Assembly: GCA_029006345.1 (NCBI GenBank)
Contig: JAQXGK010000111.1
Span: 1-40,362, forward strand
Source of the DNA: Bacillota bacterium
GTDB taxonomy: Bacteria > Bacillota > Clostridia > Oscillospirales > SIG627
DNA: 40,362 bases
Direction of reading: 5' to 3'
Positions 25,569 through 38,963 of the stretch are shown one piece after another. Each line of letters starts with the position of its first letter. Position 1 is the stretch's first letter. Below the pieces are notes generated by a model. It was given only the letters and a program-made list of their open reading frames with translations, had not been told where the DNA came from and searched no databases. The position numbers were made by a program, and so were the translations under genes.

Positions 25569-25916
25569 GGGGGCGTAATGGTTTCGACGGGGTTTTTGAA
25601 GCAGAATAAGCGGGTAGAGTAGCAGAACTCTCAAATAGCTGCAAATTAAAATTAAACGCTGATAATAATCAGGTTAGATTAGCTGCCTAAGTGCAGCCGT
25701 TCCCCCGGTGAGTACCACGGCTCCGGGCTGAGCGTCACTCAGTGGTAAAGGTGAATCTGCCAAAGCTTTGAGGCAGATCATCATTTTATGAAGCTACCCT
25801 TGATTCAGTTTGTTGCGCAACGGTGTCAAAAGGGGAATTCAAAGGCGTAACTGCACCCGGAGAAGGTTCTGTGAATTGAATTTCGGACAGGGGTTCGACT
25901 CCCCTCGCCTCCACCA
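25569..25916 (+). ncRNA. ssrA: transfer-messenger RNA (tmRNA)
   Basis: The 348-nt RNA begins GGGGGCGTAATGG and ends CGCCTCCACCA, whose acceptor strands pair with one G-U. It has the T-arm GGGGTTCGACTCCCC and an encoded CCA. The tag frame is best read from GCT at 25658 after TAAAC: Ala-Asp-Asn-Asn-Gln-Val-Arg-Leu-Ala-Ala, then TAA at 25688-25690. The resume codon was chosen because its frame ends in the standard Leu-Ala-Ala-stop and because TAxxC precedes it. Together with SmpB it rescues stalled ribosomes. The prophage begins just beyond its 3' end, so ssrA is the likely attachment gene. Confidence 0.95.
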
Positions 25917-25920
25917 AACG

Positions 25921-27512: not shown

Positions 27513-29192
27513 TCATATCGTTCCGCCAAGTGTTATCACGGCGGATTGTAATTCGTTTATTTTTTTGAGCAGATTGTTATATGCCGCAGTAGTGTCCGCT
27601 CGGTATTTTATTGTGCATAAGTTATCGCAGGTTATCTTGGTTGAGCCGAGATATGTTGACAGAGCCTTTACCGCAGATACTATGCCGCTGTCGGTTATCT
27701 CAGTCGTTATGGGCGCTATCGGGTACATAATATAACAATTAGAGAGATTATTTATCTTTTCTACTGTTAAGCTCGTTGTAAGCTGCATTCGCCCTCTGCC
27801 GTTGTGCAGATATATTCTTTCGGCACCCGATCCGCCCTGGGCGAAGTGCGTACACATAAATATATCGGTTGCAGTACCGGCTATTATATCCGGGTCAATA
27901 CTCGGCTCGAATTTTGATACAAATTTGCCGATTGCTGTCGTAGTGATTTTTGATACCGCCGGCATAGGCCCGTAATATAGCCTTTGAACGTACCAGACCG
28001 CGCCGTCCTTGAGATAGAACTCGTCGTATATCGTTCCGGCGGAACAGGTAAGCGCGCGAAGCGGATAATCTTCCGGAACGCTGAATGACTGGCTTTTGGT
28101 AAGATGCGATATTTTAACAGTCGGCTGAGCGGATACAATATCGACAGGCGCAGTAGGAGTCGGTGTGCCGTCCTGATCGCTGTTGCCGTAAATGTTCAAG
28201 CCTTCGATCGGATGATTGACGGCATCATTGATACTTTGCGTCTTTGCCGTTTGGCTTTCGAGGATAATTATGTCGGCTTTGCCGTTATACGCTTCCTGTC
28301 TCTTGGCTTCGTTCTCCTGCCGTACCGCCTCGGCAGCCGCCCGCTCGTTCTCAGCTGTGACGCGTGCCGTCTCGGCAGCCGCCCGCTCGTTCTCGGCGGA
28401 TATCCTGGTATTCTCGGCGCCCGCTCTTGCGGCTTCGTTGGACTGACGTTCTGCTTCCGCGCTTGCTCTTGTTTCTTCCGCTGCTTGTCGTTTGGTTTCA
28501 GCGCCTGATCTTGCAGACTCGTTAAGCTGTCGATTGTTTTCCGCACTTGCCCTCTCGGTTTCGGATTTTACTCTCGATTTTTCGTTTTTCTGGCGATCTG
28601 CTTCTGCATCTGTACGGGCGGTCTCGGCGCTTTGCCGCTCATTCTCGGCCGTGATGCGTTCCGCCTCGTTTACACTCAGCTGTTGGATTTCGTCGGCCGC
28701 GAGAACGTCATCGACAATCTCGGCCTTGTCACTGTCCGTCCAATAGTCGACGCCGCGGTTTGGCGTGAATTTGCCGTTGTCAGCGTCGTCTCTGACTGAC
28801 CGTGCCGTGTCGCGTGCATCACCGCAAAGCGATATTATCTGATCATACACGGTCGGCGTGGGCGGCTCGGGTGTTTGGCCGTCCTTGTACCCGGATACCG
28901 CCACCGGGATATTGATGACGTCGGCGGTGATACGCTTGGTGCCGACGGAGCCGTATACCGATAAATCAAATCCGGGCGACGCGATAACCTCGTGCGGCAC
29001 TATAATACTGTCGCTGTCGAGGAGCTGTGTATATGTGTTATCGCCGTGCGTAAATACCGCTGTTTTTGCCGTGCCATCCCAGTCGGCACTGAAAGAAAAC
29101 GACAGCGTCAAATAATCCACGCTGTCGGCTACCGGTTTTGATTTGTTTAACAGACTAAGCTTTTGATGACTGCATGATATTTTCAGGTCCAT
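27513..29192 (-). CDS. phage tail fibre / baseplate upper protein with long coiled-coil
   Basis: A 559-residue structural protein. The first 130 residues form a beta-rich domain that probably attaches to the baseplate (BppU-like in position and style), ending in a Pro-rich linker PEPPTPTVYDQI. Residues about 175-305 are made of 7-residue repeats of the kind AExxRxx, a parallel trimeric coiled-coil stalk. The last 250 residues are beta-rich and likely bind the host surface. Eleven-residue-type phasing is not seen; the heptads look continuous. AAGGAG stands about 13 nt before the ATG, rather far. Host-range determinant is an inference from position. Confidence 0.8.
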   Translation of the reverse strand: MDLKISCSHQKLSLLNKSKPVADSVDYLTLSFSFSADWDGTAKTAVFTHGDNTYTQLLDSDSIIVPHEVIASPGFDLSVYGSVGTKRITADVINIPVAVSGYKDGQTPEPPTPTVYDQIISLCGDARDTARSVRDDADNGKFTPNRGVDYWTDSDKAEIVDDVLAADEIQQLSVNEAERITAENERQSAETARTDAEADRQKNEKSRVKSETERASAENNRQLNESARSGAETKRQAAEETRASAEAERQSNEAARAGAENTRISAENERAAAETARVTAENERAAAEAVRQENEAKRQEAYNGKADIIILESQTAKTQSINDAVNHPIEGLNIYGNSDQDGTPTPTAPVDIVSAQPTVKISHLTKSQSFSVPEDYPLRALTCSAGTIYDEFYLKDGAVWYVQRLYYGPMPAVSKITTTAIGKFVSKFEPSIDPDIIAGTATDIFMCTHFAQGGSGAERIYLHNGRGRMQLTTSLTVEKINNLSNCYIMYPIAPITTEITDSGIVSAVKALSTYLGSTKITCDNLCTIKYRADTTAAYNNLLKKINELQSAVITLGGTI

Positions 29193-31274: not shown

Positions 31275-31676
31275 TTAACCTCGATTCGGTAATCGCTTGG
31301 GGGATTTAGCTATAAATTGTAGTTGCACGCTGTCCCAGTATTTAACGCCGTTTTTTACAACCTTGAGTTTTTGGCGTCCGGTCGTTATGTACGCATAAAA
31401 GAGATAGCTGGATTGGTTATACGGTACGCTAAGTGTACCAAAAGCTGTAGGTGTACTTATAGCTTCCCAAAAAGCATCGTAATCTTTAACAGAACAGTTT
31501 TTGCCGCGTGCAACTGTTAGGGTATAATTATAGAAAGTGCCGATCGGATCTATAAACATATTGCCGTCCTGCGTTCGTCCGCTTTTTTCTCCTGATAGCT
31601 TTTCAAATGTGCGTTCAAGGTCGAGGATTATGACATCATAGTAAACACCGTTCCACGAAAATAAATTCTGCGCCAT
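31275..31676 (-). CDS. phage distal-tail-like protein
   Basis: A 133-residue protein between tape measure and hub, the place of a Dit protein but much shorter than usual (Dit is commonly 200-300 residues). VARGKNCSVKDYDAFWEAIS and GRQKLKVVKNGVKYWDSVQL are seen. It resembles small tail proteins of the DUF6711 style, though I name that family only tentatively. The stop of the tape measure gene and this start overlap by 1 nt. Confidence 0.7.
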   Translation of the reverse strand: MAQNLFSWNGVYYDVIILDLERTFEKLSGEKSGRTQDGNMFIDPIGTFYNYTLTVARGKNCSVKDYDAFWEAISTPTAFGTLSVPYNQSSYLFYAYITTGRQKLKVVKNGVKYWDSVQLQFIAKSPKRLPNRG

Positions 31677-33946
31677 TACTTATTCACCGCCTTTACAGAT
31701 AATCTTGCATTTTCCTTGTTTATCGCGGGAACCGCCGCGCGCGCGAAGGATCTACCGTCCAACTCAAGCACTATAGTACCGCCGCCAAACCCGCCGCCAT
31801 AAGAGCTAAGAACCTCAGCTACAGCTTGCTTGATTGTGGATAGGGGCGCTTCCACGTTGGTTCCGCTTGTTTGATCGCCTAACATAGCCAAGAAAGGACG
31901 GTTAGCAGGAATTACTGCACCCGTCGCAAGTGCTGGCAAACCTATAAGAGAACCTACTGCTGAAAAAGCGTGCTTTAGGTATTTCCATGCATCTCCGAAG
32001 CTATCCCCTATGGATCCTAATAATTCATCTGAATTATCGTGGTTATATATATCTGTTTCCCACTTGATAGCGCCTTCCTTTGCAGCATATATGCCGAATA
32101 AAAACGTTAACTCGTCAACCACTCGGTCGTTTATATCTTGCACAGTAGTATCAGAGTTTTCAGCTACATATCCGCTTTCGGCCGAGGTTTCGCCAATAGA
32201 ATTGAATGTTTTATACCAGGATTCGTGTTTATGATTAATAGCACTATATAGGTCATCAAGTGCAGGCGATAAACTGTCAGCATACCAGTTTGGTAAAGTA
32301 TTGTTTGTAAATTCAGTTAGCTTGTCTTTAACAGAAGATAACGCCGAATCAAAGGCGCCTGATAGATTAGAATTTAGTCTTGGCAAAAAATCGGTGCCAA
32401 TACTGAACAGGATCGATTTATACCAGTTCGGAACAGTGTTCCCCGCAAAATCTGTCAGTTTTTCCGTAATCGGTTGTAGGATTGAATTGCTGATCTTTTC
32501 AGGAAGGTTTGTTGCGGCACTTATGGAATCGTCTATCTTAACTTTGGTATCATCAATGCTTTGCCCAAAGTTTTCTTTTGCTGTGCCGAGACTTCCATCA
32601 ATGCTTTTTAAGCCTTCTTCGATAGAATCAGTGACACCATCAACGCTTTTTCCGATGTCTTCTTCTGATTTGCCAAAATATCCGGATATGCTGTTTAATG
32701 CATCACTTATAGAATCAGGCAAATTATCAATAGACGCGCTCCCAAGCTTACTTAATATATCGGAAAAGCTGAGCGCACCGACACCGGCAAGCTCGAGAGC
32801 GCCTTCTAGTACGCTTACTGCATCCGCTTCAGCTTGTGTATCTCGTGTTTGATTTTCAAGCGTTCGGTTTTTCTTGCCGAACAGCTTGTCAAGCAACCCT
32901 GTTGTAGATGCGAGTTTTTTCATCCAATGCAAAAGCAAAAGAACTGCAGCAATCTCTAATATCAGTTTTGCTCGTGATAGGTCGAGATTGTCCCAGTTCT
33001 CAAAAATTGGATCTGTGCTTTTGTTGGTATCTGTATTGTTAAGAATGTCAAGCGTATCAAATCCGGCAAGTTGTTTTTTGGCTTCTTTTGAAGCATCAGC
33101 CATTTTTTGCAAAGATTTGGCTGACTTTTCTGCTTCTTCCGCAGTATTCCCCAAAAAACTATTTATTATTTTTGCCAGTAGCGCCGACAGTTCGACGCCT
33201 ATTTGCAACAGCTCCTGAAGCGCAGGTTTTAGACTTTCCCACAAAGGAGACGCTGCCATAAGGAGATTCCCTTTTATCTTCGCTGTACTTTTTGATAACT
33301 CTTCGTCTTTTTCAACAAGATCACCAACAACGGAAGATATTTTTCTAAGCGCCCGAAGAATAACTGAATAAATGAAAACGTTTTTGATGAACTTGTTAAC
33401 TCTCCGGCTGAACTTGTCAAAAAGGCTTGCTGTGCTTTTAGCTGTGCTCTGTATTTTCTGACAACTGTCACTCGCCTCGGACAAATCTCGTTTGTTTTTT
33501 TTTGACTGTTCAGAGGCTTCTCTGGCGGTTTTGTTTGCTGAGGCTATATTACTTTTTATTCTATCAGATTCATCGGCGGCTGCTTTTATGTAGCCTTGTG
33601 ATTTGGCATACGATTCGGGATTCATTCGAGCTCGATCAATATTGGCTTTAAGTTTTGCAGAATCATCGTATAAAAAGCTCATTCGAGTTTCAATAGCTTC
33701 GACCTGCTCGTCAAGTTCAGCCATGCTCCGAGCCATTTTCCTATATTCGCTAGAATTTGTGCCCCCGTTTTTTGCAATCAAATCCATTTGATATTGTAGT
33801 TGCTTGCTCTTATCAAGCAAATCTTGACGGAGTTTTTTTTGCTTTTCTAACTCTCTGGTTTCGCGCATAAGCTTTGATGTCATTTTCCCGACATCTTTGT
33901 CTATCTGACTTTGGTCAAAGCCTACAGACAGTAACAAATCAGCCAT
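31676..33946 (-). CDS. phage tail tape measure protein
   Basis: The 756-residue ruler that sets tail length. The first 190 residues are coiled-coil (heptads with many Lys and Glu), a hydrophobic stretch follows (about 180-205 and 325-345), then a region of amphipathic repeats (SIDGSLGTAKENFGQSIDD), and LPALATGAVIPANRPFLAMLGDQ, shortened to ALATGAVIPANRPFLAML, a motif typical of these proteins near the C-terminus. At about 1.5 angstrom per residue a tail of roughly 110 nm would be expected, within the siphovirus range. It overlaps the Gp15 gene by 1 nt. Confidence 0.9.
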   Translation of the reverse strand: MADLLLSVGFDQSQIDKDVGKMTSKLMRETRELEKQKKLRQDLLDKSKQLQYQMDLIAKNGGTNSSEYRKMARSMAELDEQVEAIETRMSFLYDDSAKLKANIDRARMNPESYAKSQGYIKAAADESDRIKSNIASANKTAREASEQSKKNKRDLSEASDSCQKIQSTAKSTASLFDKFSRRVNKFIKNVFIYSVILRALRKISSVVGDLVEKDEELSKSTAKIKGNLLMAASPLWESLKPALQELLQIGVELSALLAKIINSFLGNTAEEAEKSAKSLQKMADASKEAKKQLAGFDTLDILNNTDTNKSTDPIFENWDNLDLSRAKLILEIAAVLLLLHWMKKLASTTGLLDKLFGKKNRTLENQTRDTQAEADAVSVLEGALELAGVGALSFSDILSKLGSASIDNLPDSISDALNSISGYFGKSEEDIGKSVDGVTDSIEEGLKSIDGSLGTAKENFGQSIDDTKVKIDDSISAATNLPEKISNSILQPITEKLTDFAGNTVPNWYKSILFSIGTDFLPRLNSNLSGAFDSALSSVKDKLTEFTNNTLPNWYADSLSPALDDLYSAINHKHESWYKTFNSIGETSAESGYVAENSDTTVQDINDRVVDELTFLFGIYAAKEGAIKWETDIYNHDNSDELLGSIGDSFGDAWKYLKHAFSAVGSLIGLPALATGAVIPANRPFLAMLGDQTSGTNVEAPLSTIKQAVAEVLSSYGGGFGGGTIVLELDGRSFARAAVPAINKENARLSVKAVNK

Positions 33947-34503
33947 TATTCGACCCCCAATATATCGTTAATTAAATCTTCCTCTTCTTTTGAAATATTT
34001 ACTTTCAGGTCGACAAGTTCCTTGTTATCTTCATAAAACTCACGTTCCCATTTTTCAAGCTTCTTGTGCCTGATTCTTTTATTGCGAATGCTTACAACAG
34101 TAGAGAACGAACATTCACCAATTTCGTTATATGCACCGAGAAAAGTCCACCAGTGAAGATATTCAGAATCTCTACACTCGTAACCGAGTGTCCTGTTGAT
34201 TGGAGCAATAATTAGAGGAAAGTCTTGCTCCCAATTCATCAAGGATGGCTTTGGATTACTACTTTTGTAATCCCTGCCACCATCGATAAACCAGTATGCT
34301 TTTTCAATAGCCTCAACTATATTTGTCTTTGGTATTTTGCTGTAATCAGGATATAAATTGAAAAAAACAACCATAACTTTTTCATCGTTGCTAAGGTTGT
34401 TGTCATCAAGTGCAGATATTGTTTTGAGTATGTCTCTAAAATCGGTTCGTATTTTATAGTCTACGCCGCCGATAGATAGAGTTTTTGGCAAAGAGAACAA
34501 CAT
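33946..34503 (-). CDS. phage Gp15-family tail assembly protein
   Basis: A 185-residue protein of the Gp15 family: TLSIGGVDYKIRTDFRDILK at the N-terminus, MNWEQDFPLIIAPINRTLGYE and HWWTFLGAYNEIGE. Gp15 proteins are encoded directly before the tape measure and are thought to be tail assembly chaperones. A programmed frameshift between this and the preceding gene is common in other phages; here the genes overlap by 1 nt and I see no clear slippery site. Confidence 0.88.
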   Translation of the reverse strand: MLFSLPKTLSIGGVDYKIRTDFRDILKTISALDDNNLSNDEKVMVVFFNLYPDYSKIPKTNIVEAIEKAYWFIDGGRDYKSSNPKPSLMNWEQDFPLIIAPINRTLGYECRDSEYLHWWTFLGAYNEIGECSFSTVVSIRNKRIRHKKLEKWEREFYEDNKELVDLKVNISKEEEDLINDILGVE

Positions 34504-34931
34504 TACTTTATAAGATACTTATCTATCTTTTTGATTGTTTTTTTTGCGCTGATTCTGAATTTTTCCTCTATTAGCGGCATGATTGCTTCCATAAATTCTT
34601 CAATGTACATTTTTCCGCCGACATCAGCTGTGCAATATGTACTCCCAAAAACCATATCAGACACTTTTTCGTTGTCGAAGATATAATTGATCTGCTCACG
34701 TATTTTTGAATCAGTTTCAGCAAAAACATCAATTATATCGCGTGTATCTGTTTCTGCTGTCGCTGAAAGCTCCGTGCAATACGCTTTTATTTTCTCGTTG
34801 GCTTTCTTTAACCTCTCAAAAATTCCGTTGTCATCGAGGTTTATATAAATCACACGGTCTTCGCCATATTTTTCCTTATTAACATATATCTTTTCTTTGC
34901 CATCGTTTATATTAAGATTTAGTTCTGCCAT
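34503..34931 (-). CDS. phage tail assembly chaperone-like protein
   Basis: A 142-residue protein beginning MAELNLNIND, in the position of the first tail assembly chaperone. The frame is open to 34979, but that extension runs through the terminator hairpin; AAAGGAG is 5 nt before the ATG at 34931. The protein is acidic with a basic C-terminus (KKTIKKIDKYLIK). It overlaps the Gp15 gene by 1 nt. Confidence 0.75.
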   Translation of the reverse strand: MAELNLNINDGKEKIYVNKEKYGEDRVIYINLDDNGIFERLKKANEKIKAYCTELSATAETDTRDIIDVFAETDSKIREQINYIFDNEKVSDMVFGSTYCTADVGGKMYIEEFMEAIMPLIEEKFRISAKKTIKKIDKYLIK

Positions 34932-34940
34932 AGTTACTCC

Positions 34941-34974
34941 TTTCAAATTAAAAGGAGCACGACTTCGTGCTCCT
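34941..34974 (-). terminator. terminator behind the inserted zinc-ribbon gene
   Basis: On the minus strand AGGAGCACGA/TCGTGCTCCT (34974-34953) forms a perfect 10-bp stem with a 2-base gap, followed by TTTAATTTG. It lies 15 nt after the stop at 34990 and before the chaperone start. Confidence 0.8.
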
Positions 34975-34989
34975 ATCACCCTTATTCTT

Positions 34990-35670
34990 TTAACTAATGA
35001 GATACGCTATACATTCACTGCTGAATCTGTCATACTCATTATTTTTTACGGTTTGCAACATGTCTAAATAGCGTTGTGCATCTCTTACTTTTCCGCTACC
35101 GCTGTTATAATAAAGGTCGCGTATTTTTTTGTCACCTTCATTATAGATCTCCGTGAATTTTAGCGCGTGCTTTTCAATTGTATCATAAAGCCCGTTCAAA
35201 CCGCTGTCGTTTTCATTGACCTTTGCCTTGAAGTCTGCTATTGCTATAGGCGTGTACGCTTCCAATTTAGTAGCGTATTCATTATAAATGGCCTCAAATG
35301 AGTTGGTCGGCGATGTGGTACCGCTCTGTGCAGTTGTTGTCGTAATGATATCATTCGATCTTTCCGGCGAGTTGCTATACTGAGTCGTATTGTTTTCGAT
35401 ATCAGTATCTACATTGGACAGGAAATAAGCATCAAACAGTCCGTTATTAAACGCAAAAAAAACAAACCCAACCGATATGACGCATATAATAATCATTATT
35501 GCTGCCAACTTACCACTGGAGAAACGCTTTTGACCGCATTGAGGGCATTTCGTATAGACATCCGAGTATTGCGCATGACATTTCTTGCACTCAACCATTT
35601 TGTGATTAAGCTTGTAATTATTATCGTTGTTTAAGTTCGGATGTAATTCAGGGGAGCCGTAAGCGCCCAT
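34990..35670 (-). CDS. zinc-ribbon membrane protein, probable phage cargo (moron) gene
   Basis: A 226-residue protein with no structural role suggested by sequence. The N-terminus carries a zinc ribbon (Cys28, Cys31, Cys42, Cys45: CKKC and CPQC), then one membrane helix (about 55-77), a Thr/Ser-rich linker and an extracytoplasmic helical domain of about 110 residues. The start is ATG 35670 with GAGAGG 8 nt upstream; a GTG at 35679 overlaps that site. It sits between the major tail gene and the chaperone gene, which are normally adjacent, and has its own promoter and terminator. This is the layout of a moron expressed from the prophage. A surface role such as superinfection exclusion is possible but unproven. 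Confidence 0.85.
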   Translation of the reverse strand: MGAYGSPELHPNLNNDNNYKLNHKMVECKKCHAQYSDVYTKCPQCGQKRFSSGKLAAIMIIICVISVGFVFFAFNNGLFDAYFLSNVDTDIENNTTQYSNSPERSNDIITTTTAQSGTTSPTNSFEAIYNEYATKLEAYTPIAIADFKAKVNENDSGLNGLYDTIEKHALKFTEIYNEGDKKIRDLYYNSGSGKVRDAQRYLDMLQTVKNNEYDRFSSECIAYLIS

Positions 35671-35700
35671 TTTACGCACCTCTCTATTAAATGGTAATTA

Positions 35701-35729
35701 ATTATACCATATGTATAATCAAAGTGCAA
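35701..35729 (-). promoter_or_regulatory. promoter and palindromic element of the cargo gene
   Basis: On the minus strand TATAAT (35706-35701) is preceded at 17 nt by TTGCAC (35729-35724). ATTATAC and GTATAAT form an inverted repeat with a 5-nt centre that overlaps the -10, so a repressor could bind there. Confidence 0.65.
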
Positions 35730-35735
35730 CATTTT

Positions 35736-35764
35736 GCCCCGCCGCAGTTATGTTGCAGCGGGGC
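35736..35764. other. GC-rich hairpin between the major tail gene and the cargo gene
   Basis: GCCCCGCCGC (35736-35745) pairs with GCAGCGGGGC (35755-35764), one mismatch, around a 9-nt loop. A-runs flank it on the minus strand, T-runs on the plus strand, so it would terminate plus-strand rather than late transcripts. It may slow or process the late mRNA. Confidence 0.6.
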
Positions 35765-35770
35765 ATTTTC

Positions 35771-36283
35771 TCAGTCTTCTGTAAATGTTATCGGAGATTT
35801 CAATGAGTTTACCGTTCCAAATGTTTTATCATTGCTGTAATGAATACAGATAGGCATATTCACATTTGAATCTCCTCCGATACTTTTAACCTCTATTGTG
35901 CATCCGCTGTGTTTTTCTGCTTTGTATCCATTTGTCGAAGTTCCATAAAACCCGCGGATAACAAGAACATCAAACAAAGACAACTCAGACAAGGCATTTC
36001 TTTGCATAATATCATCAAGTTGCGCCGCGAGAATAGAACCACCACGAATGGTGAATGGTTCGACATCCTGAGCGGGTTCGGTTTTTTTGATATCAGTATA
36101 CGTGATGCCGAGAATATCAGTAAAAGTTTCTGTATCGGGATTGTAATCGATAGAACTATCTTCGACACGCACACCTACGACTTCCCATACAGGCTCACTC
36201 GAAGTCCCTGTGTTTACTGCTGTGACAAGTAGCTTTCTTTCCGCAAGCTGCTTATCAACGAGATTAAATGATTCAACTGACAT
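35771..36283 (-). CDS. phage major tail protein
   Basis: A 170-residue tail tube protein. The fold begins with an N-terminal segment of strands (LLVTAVNTGTSSEPVWEVVG), then EDSSIDYNPDTETFTDILG, and a C-terminal KSPITFTED. Length and place (after head-tail connectors, before the chaperone genes) fit the siphovirus tail tube. The next phage gene on the same strand is the cargo gene. Confidence 0.82.
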   Translation of the reverse strand: MSVESFNLVDKQLAERKLLVTAVNTGTSSEPVWEVVGVRVEDSSIDYNPDTETFTDILGITYTDIKKTEPAQDVEPFTIRGGSILAAQLDDIMQRNALSELSLFDVLVIRGFYGTSTNGYKAEKHSGCTIEVKSIGGDSNVNMPICIHYSNDKTFGTVNSLKSPITFTED

Positions 36284-38087: not shown

Positions 38088-38963
38088 TTAAGACGCTTTG
38101 TTGTGCAGATAAATACCCGCAACCTTGTTCTCGTACACGTCCGCAAGGCCGTATGCGCGGTAGAAGAACATCCATCCGTCGTCGCTCTGATTGGATTCCG
38201 GTGTGATGATCTTGTTAACAACGTGCTTGGGGTACTGGAGTATCGCCTTTTTATGGATAACCATAAAGTTGATATCCTTACCGCTAGAATCTTTGACGAA
38301 GCCGCCCGCGGTTTCGCCTACTGAGGTGCCATCGTACAGGTCGATAGCGGTATAGAATCTTGTCTGCGGCACCTTCATGATTTTTGCGAAGGACGCGAGT
38401 ACCTCCTTCGACTTGTTTGTATCAACAGCAAATACCGAGTTATAGAGGGTGGGAGTGATGTACAAGTATCTTTCGTCGGCGGGGACCTCGTCCTCGTCCA
38501 ATTTGTTCTGCGCCGCTACGAGCGCTGCCAAAACATCCGTTCCTGATGCGAGAGTTGCCGCAGCGGCAGTGGATATGCCGGGCATTCCTGCATATTTTGC
38601 GAAACGGAACGCGTCCATTTCAGGAGCAACCTTAGTGCGGATAAACTCACTTGCGAGCTTGCCGAAAGCAACACCAGCGGTCTCCTCGTTGTCCATAGCG
38701 TCAATGGTGAATTTGCGTCCTCTGTCGTAGTTGAACTGGACCGTTTCATTTGTCAGAGTGACATCACCCTTGACGTATCCGGAATTGCGCGAATAGTCGG
38801 CGAGCCCATCCATAGAGATCTTCGGAATGATTATCTCATTGGTATTAGCACCCGCTCTGACAAGAGAGGCGTCGCCGTCCAAGTCAGAGGTGAGCGATGC
38901 GTTCTTATAGACCTCGTCAAGAAGGTCTATATACTTTTTGAATGTTGTAATAGCATTAGGCAT
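38088..38963 (-). CDS. phage major capsid protein
   Basis: A 291-residue major head protein, probably HK97-like fold without an N-terminal delta domain of its own because a separate scaffold is encoded just upstream. Segments MPNAITTFKKYIDLLDEVYK, VRAGANTNEIIIPKIS and GWMFFYRAYGLADVYENKVAG, shortened to WMFFYRAYGLADV, are typical. About 21 nt separate it from the scaffold gene. Confidence 0.88.
   Translation of the reverse strand: MPNAITTFKKYIDLLDEVYKNASLTSDLDGDASLVRAGANTNEIIIPKISMDGLADYSRNSGYVKGDVTLTNETVQFNYDRGRKFTIDAMDNEETAGVAFGKLASEFIRTKVAPEMDAFRFAKYAGMPGISTAAAATLASGTDVLAALVAAQNKLDEDEVPADERYLYITPTLYNSVFAVDTNKSKEVLASFAKIMKVPQTRFYTAIDLYDGTSVGETAGGFVKDSSGKDINFMVIHKKAILQYPKHVVNKIITPESNQSDDGWMFFYRAYGLADVYENKVAGIYLHNKAS

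Follow-up and report, generated by a model that had tools for sequence, protein, structure and literature searches.

A tail-operon cargo gene of a Bacillota prophage encodes a predicted membrane protein with a divergent member of an unnamed three-helix domain family

What is a gene for a zinc-ribbon membrane protein doing inside the tail operon of a prophage, and is it read in the lysogen or late in infection? The gene lies on a 40,362-base contig (hereafter the window, meaning the whole stretch of DNA that was analysed) of a 1.66-Mb draft genome of a Bacillota bacterium, assembled in 118 contigs. Bases 1 to 25.5 kb of the window carry host genes, and a minus-strand prophage begins past the tmRNA gene. 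The prophage part also includes a lysin-like gene, a scaffold-like gene and, at 27513-29192, a fibre-like gene in which degenerate Ala/Glu/Arg-rich repeats form a long run. The features referred to below are as follows.

25569-25916: tmRNA gene
31676-33946, minus strand: tape measure protein gene
33946-34503, minus strand: Gp15 gene (PF06854, 3e-22)
34503-34931, minus strand: downstream flanking gene, tail-chaperone-like (phrog_11299)
34953-34974, minus strand: intrinsic terminator-like hairpin with perfect 10-nt arms and the minus-strand tail TTTTAATTT
34993-35670, minus strand: cargo gene, encoding P0001 (226 aa); ATG at 35670, stop codon at 34990-34992
34993-35298, minus strand: outer domain of P0001, residues 125-226, predicted three-helix bundle (tblastn, hhalign, AlphaFold2)
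35452-35508, minus strand: predicted membrane helix, about residues 55-73 (hydropathy and charge bias; residues 52-77 in the model)
35527-35589, minus strand: zinc-ribbon-like CxxC-N10-CxxC segment, residues 28-48, predicted cytoplasmic
35701-35729, minus strand: promoter predicted from the sequence, with -35 TTGCAC (35729-35724), TGG and -10 TATAAT (35706-35701)
35701-35719: dyad ATTATAC-N5-GTATAAT overlapping the -10, a possible operator
35735-35765: second hairpin, between the major-tail-like gene and the promoter, without a minus-strand U-run
35771-36283, minus strand: upstream flanking gene, major-tail-like (phrog_3099)
38088-38963, minus strand: major head gene

The 28 nt of the tmRNA 3' end at 25893-25920 have an exact copy at L180:9215-9242, on another contig (C8) of the same genome, where the attachment-site copy adjoins a tyrosine integrase gene, with an S24 repressor and a Cro-like gene coming next. 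This copy and the integrase and repressor next to it make the tmRNA gene the most likely integration site of the prophage, whose two parts would then lie on separate contigs. Its integrase-repressor interval (L180:10446-11701) holds other genes, among them an HTH gene, and not the cargo gene. The HTH gene is flanked on either side by genes for proteins of 156 and 138 aa without a Pfam match, a set that is perhaps a candidate toxin-antitoxin system.

The position of the gene was compared with that in related phages, of which ten were collected through the major-tail-like protein and eighty, from IMG/VR, through Gp15. Four tail genes were placed in each by iterated profiles, and nine loci were left out as unscorable (a gene missing, or its best match out of place). 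For the two flanking genes, 'major tail' and 'chaperone' are labels drawn from gene order and conserved position; both PHROGs are of unknown function. The relatives are distant (Gp15 identity of 40-54% in the IMG/VR set). The two flanking genes are 791 bp apart here and at most 123 bp apart in 80 of the 81 scorable relatives; in the exception, L090, they are separated by 308 bp with no convincing gene inside. Since the flanking genes adjoin in related phages, it is well supported that the cargo gene is an insertion (a moron) and not a conserved late gene. Both its place between these two genes and its moron status, as given in a preliminary description of the locus, were borne out. A foreign base composition was considered and rejected, as the GC content of 0.40 resembles that of the neighbouring tail genes. 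No cargo was seen between the major-tail-like and chaperone-like genes of the other phages examined.

Cargo recurs nearby, at the junction of the Gp15 and tape measure genes, which is at least 200 bp wide in 18 of 82 scorable relatives. In ten of these wide gaps there is a gene oriented against the operon, and in one further gap a helix protein is encoded on the same strand:

L070, and L075 with its near copy L117, opposite strand: ribbon-helix-DUF4352 (PF11611) proteins
L156, opposite strand: ribbon-helix protein
L071:5572-6408, opposite strand: helix-PF12869 protein, strong match
L074 and L097, opposite strand: lipoproteins
L150, opposite strand: YoeB/RelB pair
L069 and L084, opposite strand: two other cargo genes
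L108:5623-6903, same strand as the operon: helix protein, weak PF12869 match

The other seven gaps contain rearranged tail genes, a tape-measure fragment, further same-strand genes or no convincing ORF. From these junction inserts, several of which have an anchor-plus-outer-domain plan, the tail operon is a recurrent cargo site in related phages. Literature searches on ribbon-helix proteins, and on DUF4352 in connection with superinfection, returned nothing useful.

The transcription signals ascribed to the gene in the preliminary description (its own promoter with a perfect TATAAT, a palindrome over the -10 and a terminator with a 10-bp stem) were all recovered. The promoter reads TTGCAC-N14-TGG-TATAAT, an extended -10 layout whose 17-bp spacer ends in TGG. 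The expected number of occurrences of TTG-N3-N14..16-TGNTATAAT in the 14.4 kb of prophage (both strands) is 0.05, and the single one seen is that of the cargo gene. A standard promoter scan overlooked it because the -35 matches at just 3 of 6 positions. The dyad is present once in the 1.66-Mb genome; 6% of simulated zones contain a comparable one, so that it is weak evidence when taken alone. As a target of the prophage's own repressor it was rejected, the repressor-cro interval on C8 having TGTCAATACC/GGTATTGACA repeats that are dissimilar to it. The 3' hairpin has a folding energy of -17 kcal/mol (z -3.8). The upstream hairpin, which the preliminary description does not mention, is stronger (-25 kcal/mol, z -5.3). 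Expression in the lysogen is thus predicted, as had been proposed. Late in infection, transcription of the tail operon may extend into the cargo gene as well, since the upstream hairpin has no minus-strand U-run and read-through would be possible.

The description of the product as a zinc-ribbon, single-helix membrane protein likewise held. P0001 has cysteine pairs at 28/31 and 42/45, with a weak Zn_Ribbon_1 match (E 8e-4, below the curated cut-off), and a single hydrophobic segment with a mean hydropathy of 2.94 versus 0.31 for the next best window elsewhere in the protein. An N-in/C-out topology is predicted because the N side of the helix is flanked by five K/R residues whereas the far side has none. 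Between the helix and the C-terminal domain lies a Thr/Ser/Asn-rich linker. The AlphaFold2 model of the whole protein (mean pLDDT 71) comprises ribbon strands, helix 52-77 and three further helices, with residues 73-121 forming a low-confidence linker; modelled alone, the outer domain folds as a three-helix bundle (pLDDT 89, pTM 0.80). Close full-length homologues were absent from the genus, family, order and phylum samples, the viral contigs and the phage records; order-level matches fell mainly on the generic ribbon/helix part and were excluded. Searches of the sequence against NCBIfam, PADLOC, Pfam and PDB gave nothing informative. A fold search found only generic three-helix bundles in PDB, none at E <= 0.001, and one match in BFVD (A0A8S5P382, E 8.5e-4).

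The C-terminal domain matches a protein of Lactococcus phage CAP (QWT77051.1; tblastn E 4e-5, 27% identity), from which a family was reached that includes Dorea phage DO134P1, Enterococcus phage SEsuP-1 and a faecal phage contig. Further members came from 20 IMG/VR loci and 13 genome loci. An eight-member family profile aligned with P0001 in hhalign at P 3.6e-8 (probability 95%). By these profile and sequence comparisons, the outer domain of P0001 is a divergent member of an unnamed family of three-helix-bundle domains of about 100 aa, for which Pfam and PDB gave no informative match. Every member seen has some tether on the outside, and at least five kinds of anchor occur: a lipobox, a membrane helix, a C-terminal LysM, wall-binding-type repeats (L027), and a double zinc ribbon with a membrane segment (L046). 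In L054 (Sarcina DSM 11001) and L055 (a Lachnospiraceae genome) the domain is the C-terminal part of large lipoproteins. The domain is scarce, being found in 2 of 398 genomes of the phylum sample, one of which is the present genome and the other marginal. The earlier view that the ribbon-helix-outer-domain layout is not a standard phage part holds only by half: the plan recurs in morons of related phages (L070, L075/L117, L156) and in the Butyrivibrio protein of L046, and the family to which the outer domain belongs is recurrent in phages.

The genes around the homologues were then compared. The domain genes of CAP and SEsuP-1 lie between repressor and integrase (in SEsuP-1 the repressor is accompanied by ImmA), and in DO134P1 the order is repressor-like gene, ImmA, domain gene and serine recombinase. 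The same arrangement is present in most IMG/VR loci and in genome loci L047, L050 and L053, some being cut by a contig end. With 12 of the 20 IMG/VR loci being near duplicates of an Enterococcus type, about ten cases can be counted as independent. A second tail-module case is L027, in which the domain gene directly follows the tape measure gene on the same strand. Seeded lysogeny-gene profiles gave no match near the homologues in L045, L048, L049, L054, L055 and L057, and all of these but L055 lie in chromosomal stretches with no phage genes detected. Some of the matchless loci may still be prophage, because the context profiles were seeded with few lysogeny genes.

The repressor-integrase slot is also where sie2009 and ltp are located, whose products are reported to block DNA injection (PMC3952083, PMC7693887). 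PHROG 8545, named 'superinfection exclusion Sie-like', contains Sie2009 (1.7e-79) and also matches the family domain alone in L026 (1e-12), CAP-like L025 (7e-7) and L046 (1e-5). It matches P0001 neither as a whole nor by its domain. The outer domain of Sie2009 is PF12869, for which hhalign gave no relation to the family domain and which was not found in P0001; assignment of the P0001 outer domain as a Sie2009 domain through phrog_8545 was accordingly rejected. The phrog_8545 profile appears to mix two outer domains, and because it matches PF12869 and the three-helix domain over the same columns, the name 'Sie-like' can be mis-transferred. Since phrog_8545 misses P0001 and the Sie2009 outer domain is unrelated, the exclusion label does not transfer directly to P0001. 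As judged from these profiles, the domain family shares with tested exclusion proteins the slot, the anchoring and in part a profile, but not the outer domain. PF12869 itself is present in one of the junction cargo proteins (L071).

The genomic company of the outer domain nonetheless lends support to action against superinfection, as had been suggested for this gene. In the reading that we put forward, and hold with about even confidence, P0001 is a surface protein expressed in the lysogen that probably blocks the entry of other phages. With the tail operon silent in the lysogen, the sigma-70-type promoter of the cargo gene would be active, and the message would end at the 3' hairpin. P0001 would span the cytoplasmic membrane, its zinc ribbon facing the cytoplasm and its three-helix bundle held outside by the flexible linker. 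There the bundle would most likely contact either the apparatus with which an infecting phage injects its DNA (the tail tip or tape measure protein) or a host factor that injection requires. DNA entry would thereby be stopped, in the manner of Sie2009 and Ltp. Counting against exclusion are the homologues without detected phage genes around them and the location of the cargo gene outside the lysogeny slot in this prophage. Tentatively, the three-helix domain could be a modular exclusion effector of Firmicutes temperate phages, one that is swapped among anchors and that, given its own promoter as in the present case, can move out of the repressor-integrase slot into the tail operon.

The homologues without phage genes nearby, namely the domain lipoproteins of Vagococcus, Ruminococcus, Sarcina and Solobacterium and the Butyrivibrio ribbon-helix protein, are what would be expected if P0001 were instead a lysogenic-conversion protein of the envelope that is not directed at phages: a general Firmicutes surface module, derived from a host lipoprotein and aiding the host under wall or membrane stress, in adhesion or in nutrient capture. 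The scarcity of the domain in the phylum sample speaks against such a general module, as does the housing of most phage copies in the exclusion-gene slot, and we consider this explanation unlikely, although it deserves some weight. A late accessory role, in which the gene is read mainly together with the tail operon, its own promoter is weak or silent in the lysogen, and the product serves virion assembly or lysis, for instance as a lysis-timing or envelope factor, would agree with the shared strand, with the possible read-through past the upstream hairpin and with the tail-module position of the L027 gene; the extended -10 promoter, so rarely expected by chance, the 3' hairpin and the absence of the gene from related tail operons make it improbable. 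The layout of ribbon, helix and outer domain, with the ribbon predicted inside, would also suit a transmembrane signalling protein in which the outer bundle senses and the ribbon relays to the cytoplasm. Most homologues, however, have an anchor (lipobox, LysM or wall repeats) but no ribbon, which suggests that function goes with the outer domain; the host signalling role once envisaged found no support here and is thought very improbable.

A lone gene is now tied to a recurrent, unnamed surface domain of temperate phages that accompanies tested exclusion genes, and the tail operon, besides the lysogeny module, houses envelope-directed cargo in this phage group. Homologues of the domain are already at hand in isolated phages of Lactococcus and Enterococcus.

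Among known systems, the proteins of CAP (QWT77051.1), DO134P1 (WAX12381.1) and SEsuP-1 (QYI86637.1) resemble P0001 in carrying a homologous outer domain of about 100 aa on an anchor (16-30% identity over the domain). They differ in the anchor, which is a membrane helix, a lipobox or a lipobox with LysM instead of a zinc ribbon and helix, and in lying between repressor and integrase instead of in the tail operon. The protein of Butyrivibrio sp. XPD2006 (L046:5392-6297) shares with P0001 the zinc ribbon, membrane segment, linker and same outer domain, but its ribbon is double, it probably has more than one membrane segment, and no phage genes were detected near it. The ribbon-helix-DUF4352 morons (L070, L075/L117) have a zinc ribbon, membrane helix and outer domain and occupy the same tail operon, whereas their outer domain is PF11611 and their genes sit at the Gp15/tape-measure junction on the opposite strand. 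Sie2009 of Lactococcus phage Tuc2009 (NP_108681.1) is likewise prophage cargo with an N-terminal membrane anchor, a low-complexity linker and an outer domain, the last being PF12869 and the gene lying between integrase and repressor. Ltp of Streptococcus phage TP-J34 differs in its lipobox and PF07553 repeats; P0001 has no lipobox in its sequence and was not matched by PF07553, which does match Ltp itself. With its small helical outer domain tethered at the membrane, Ltp is nevertheless the model for how P0001 might work in blocking DNA injection.
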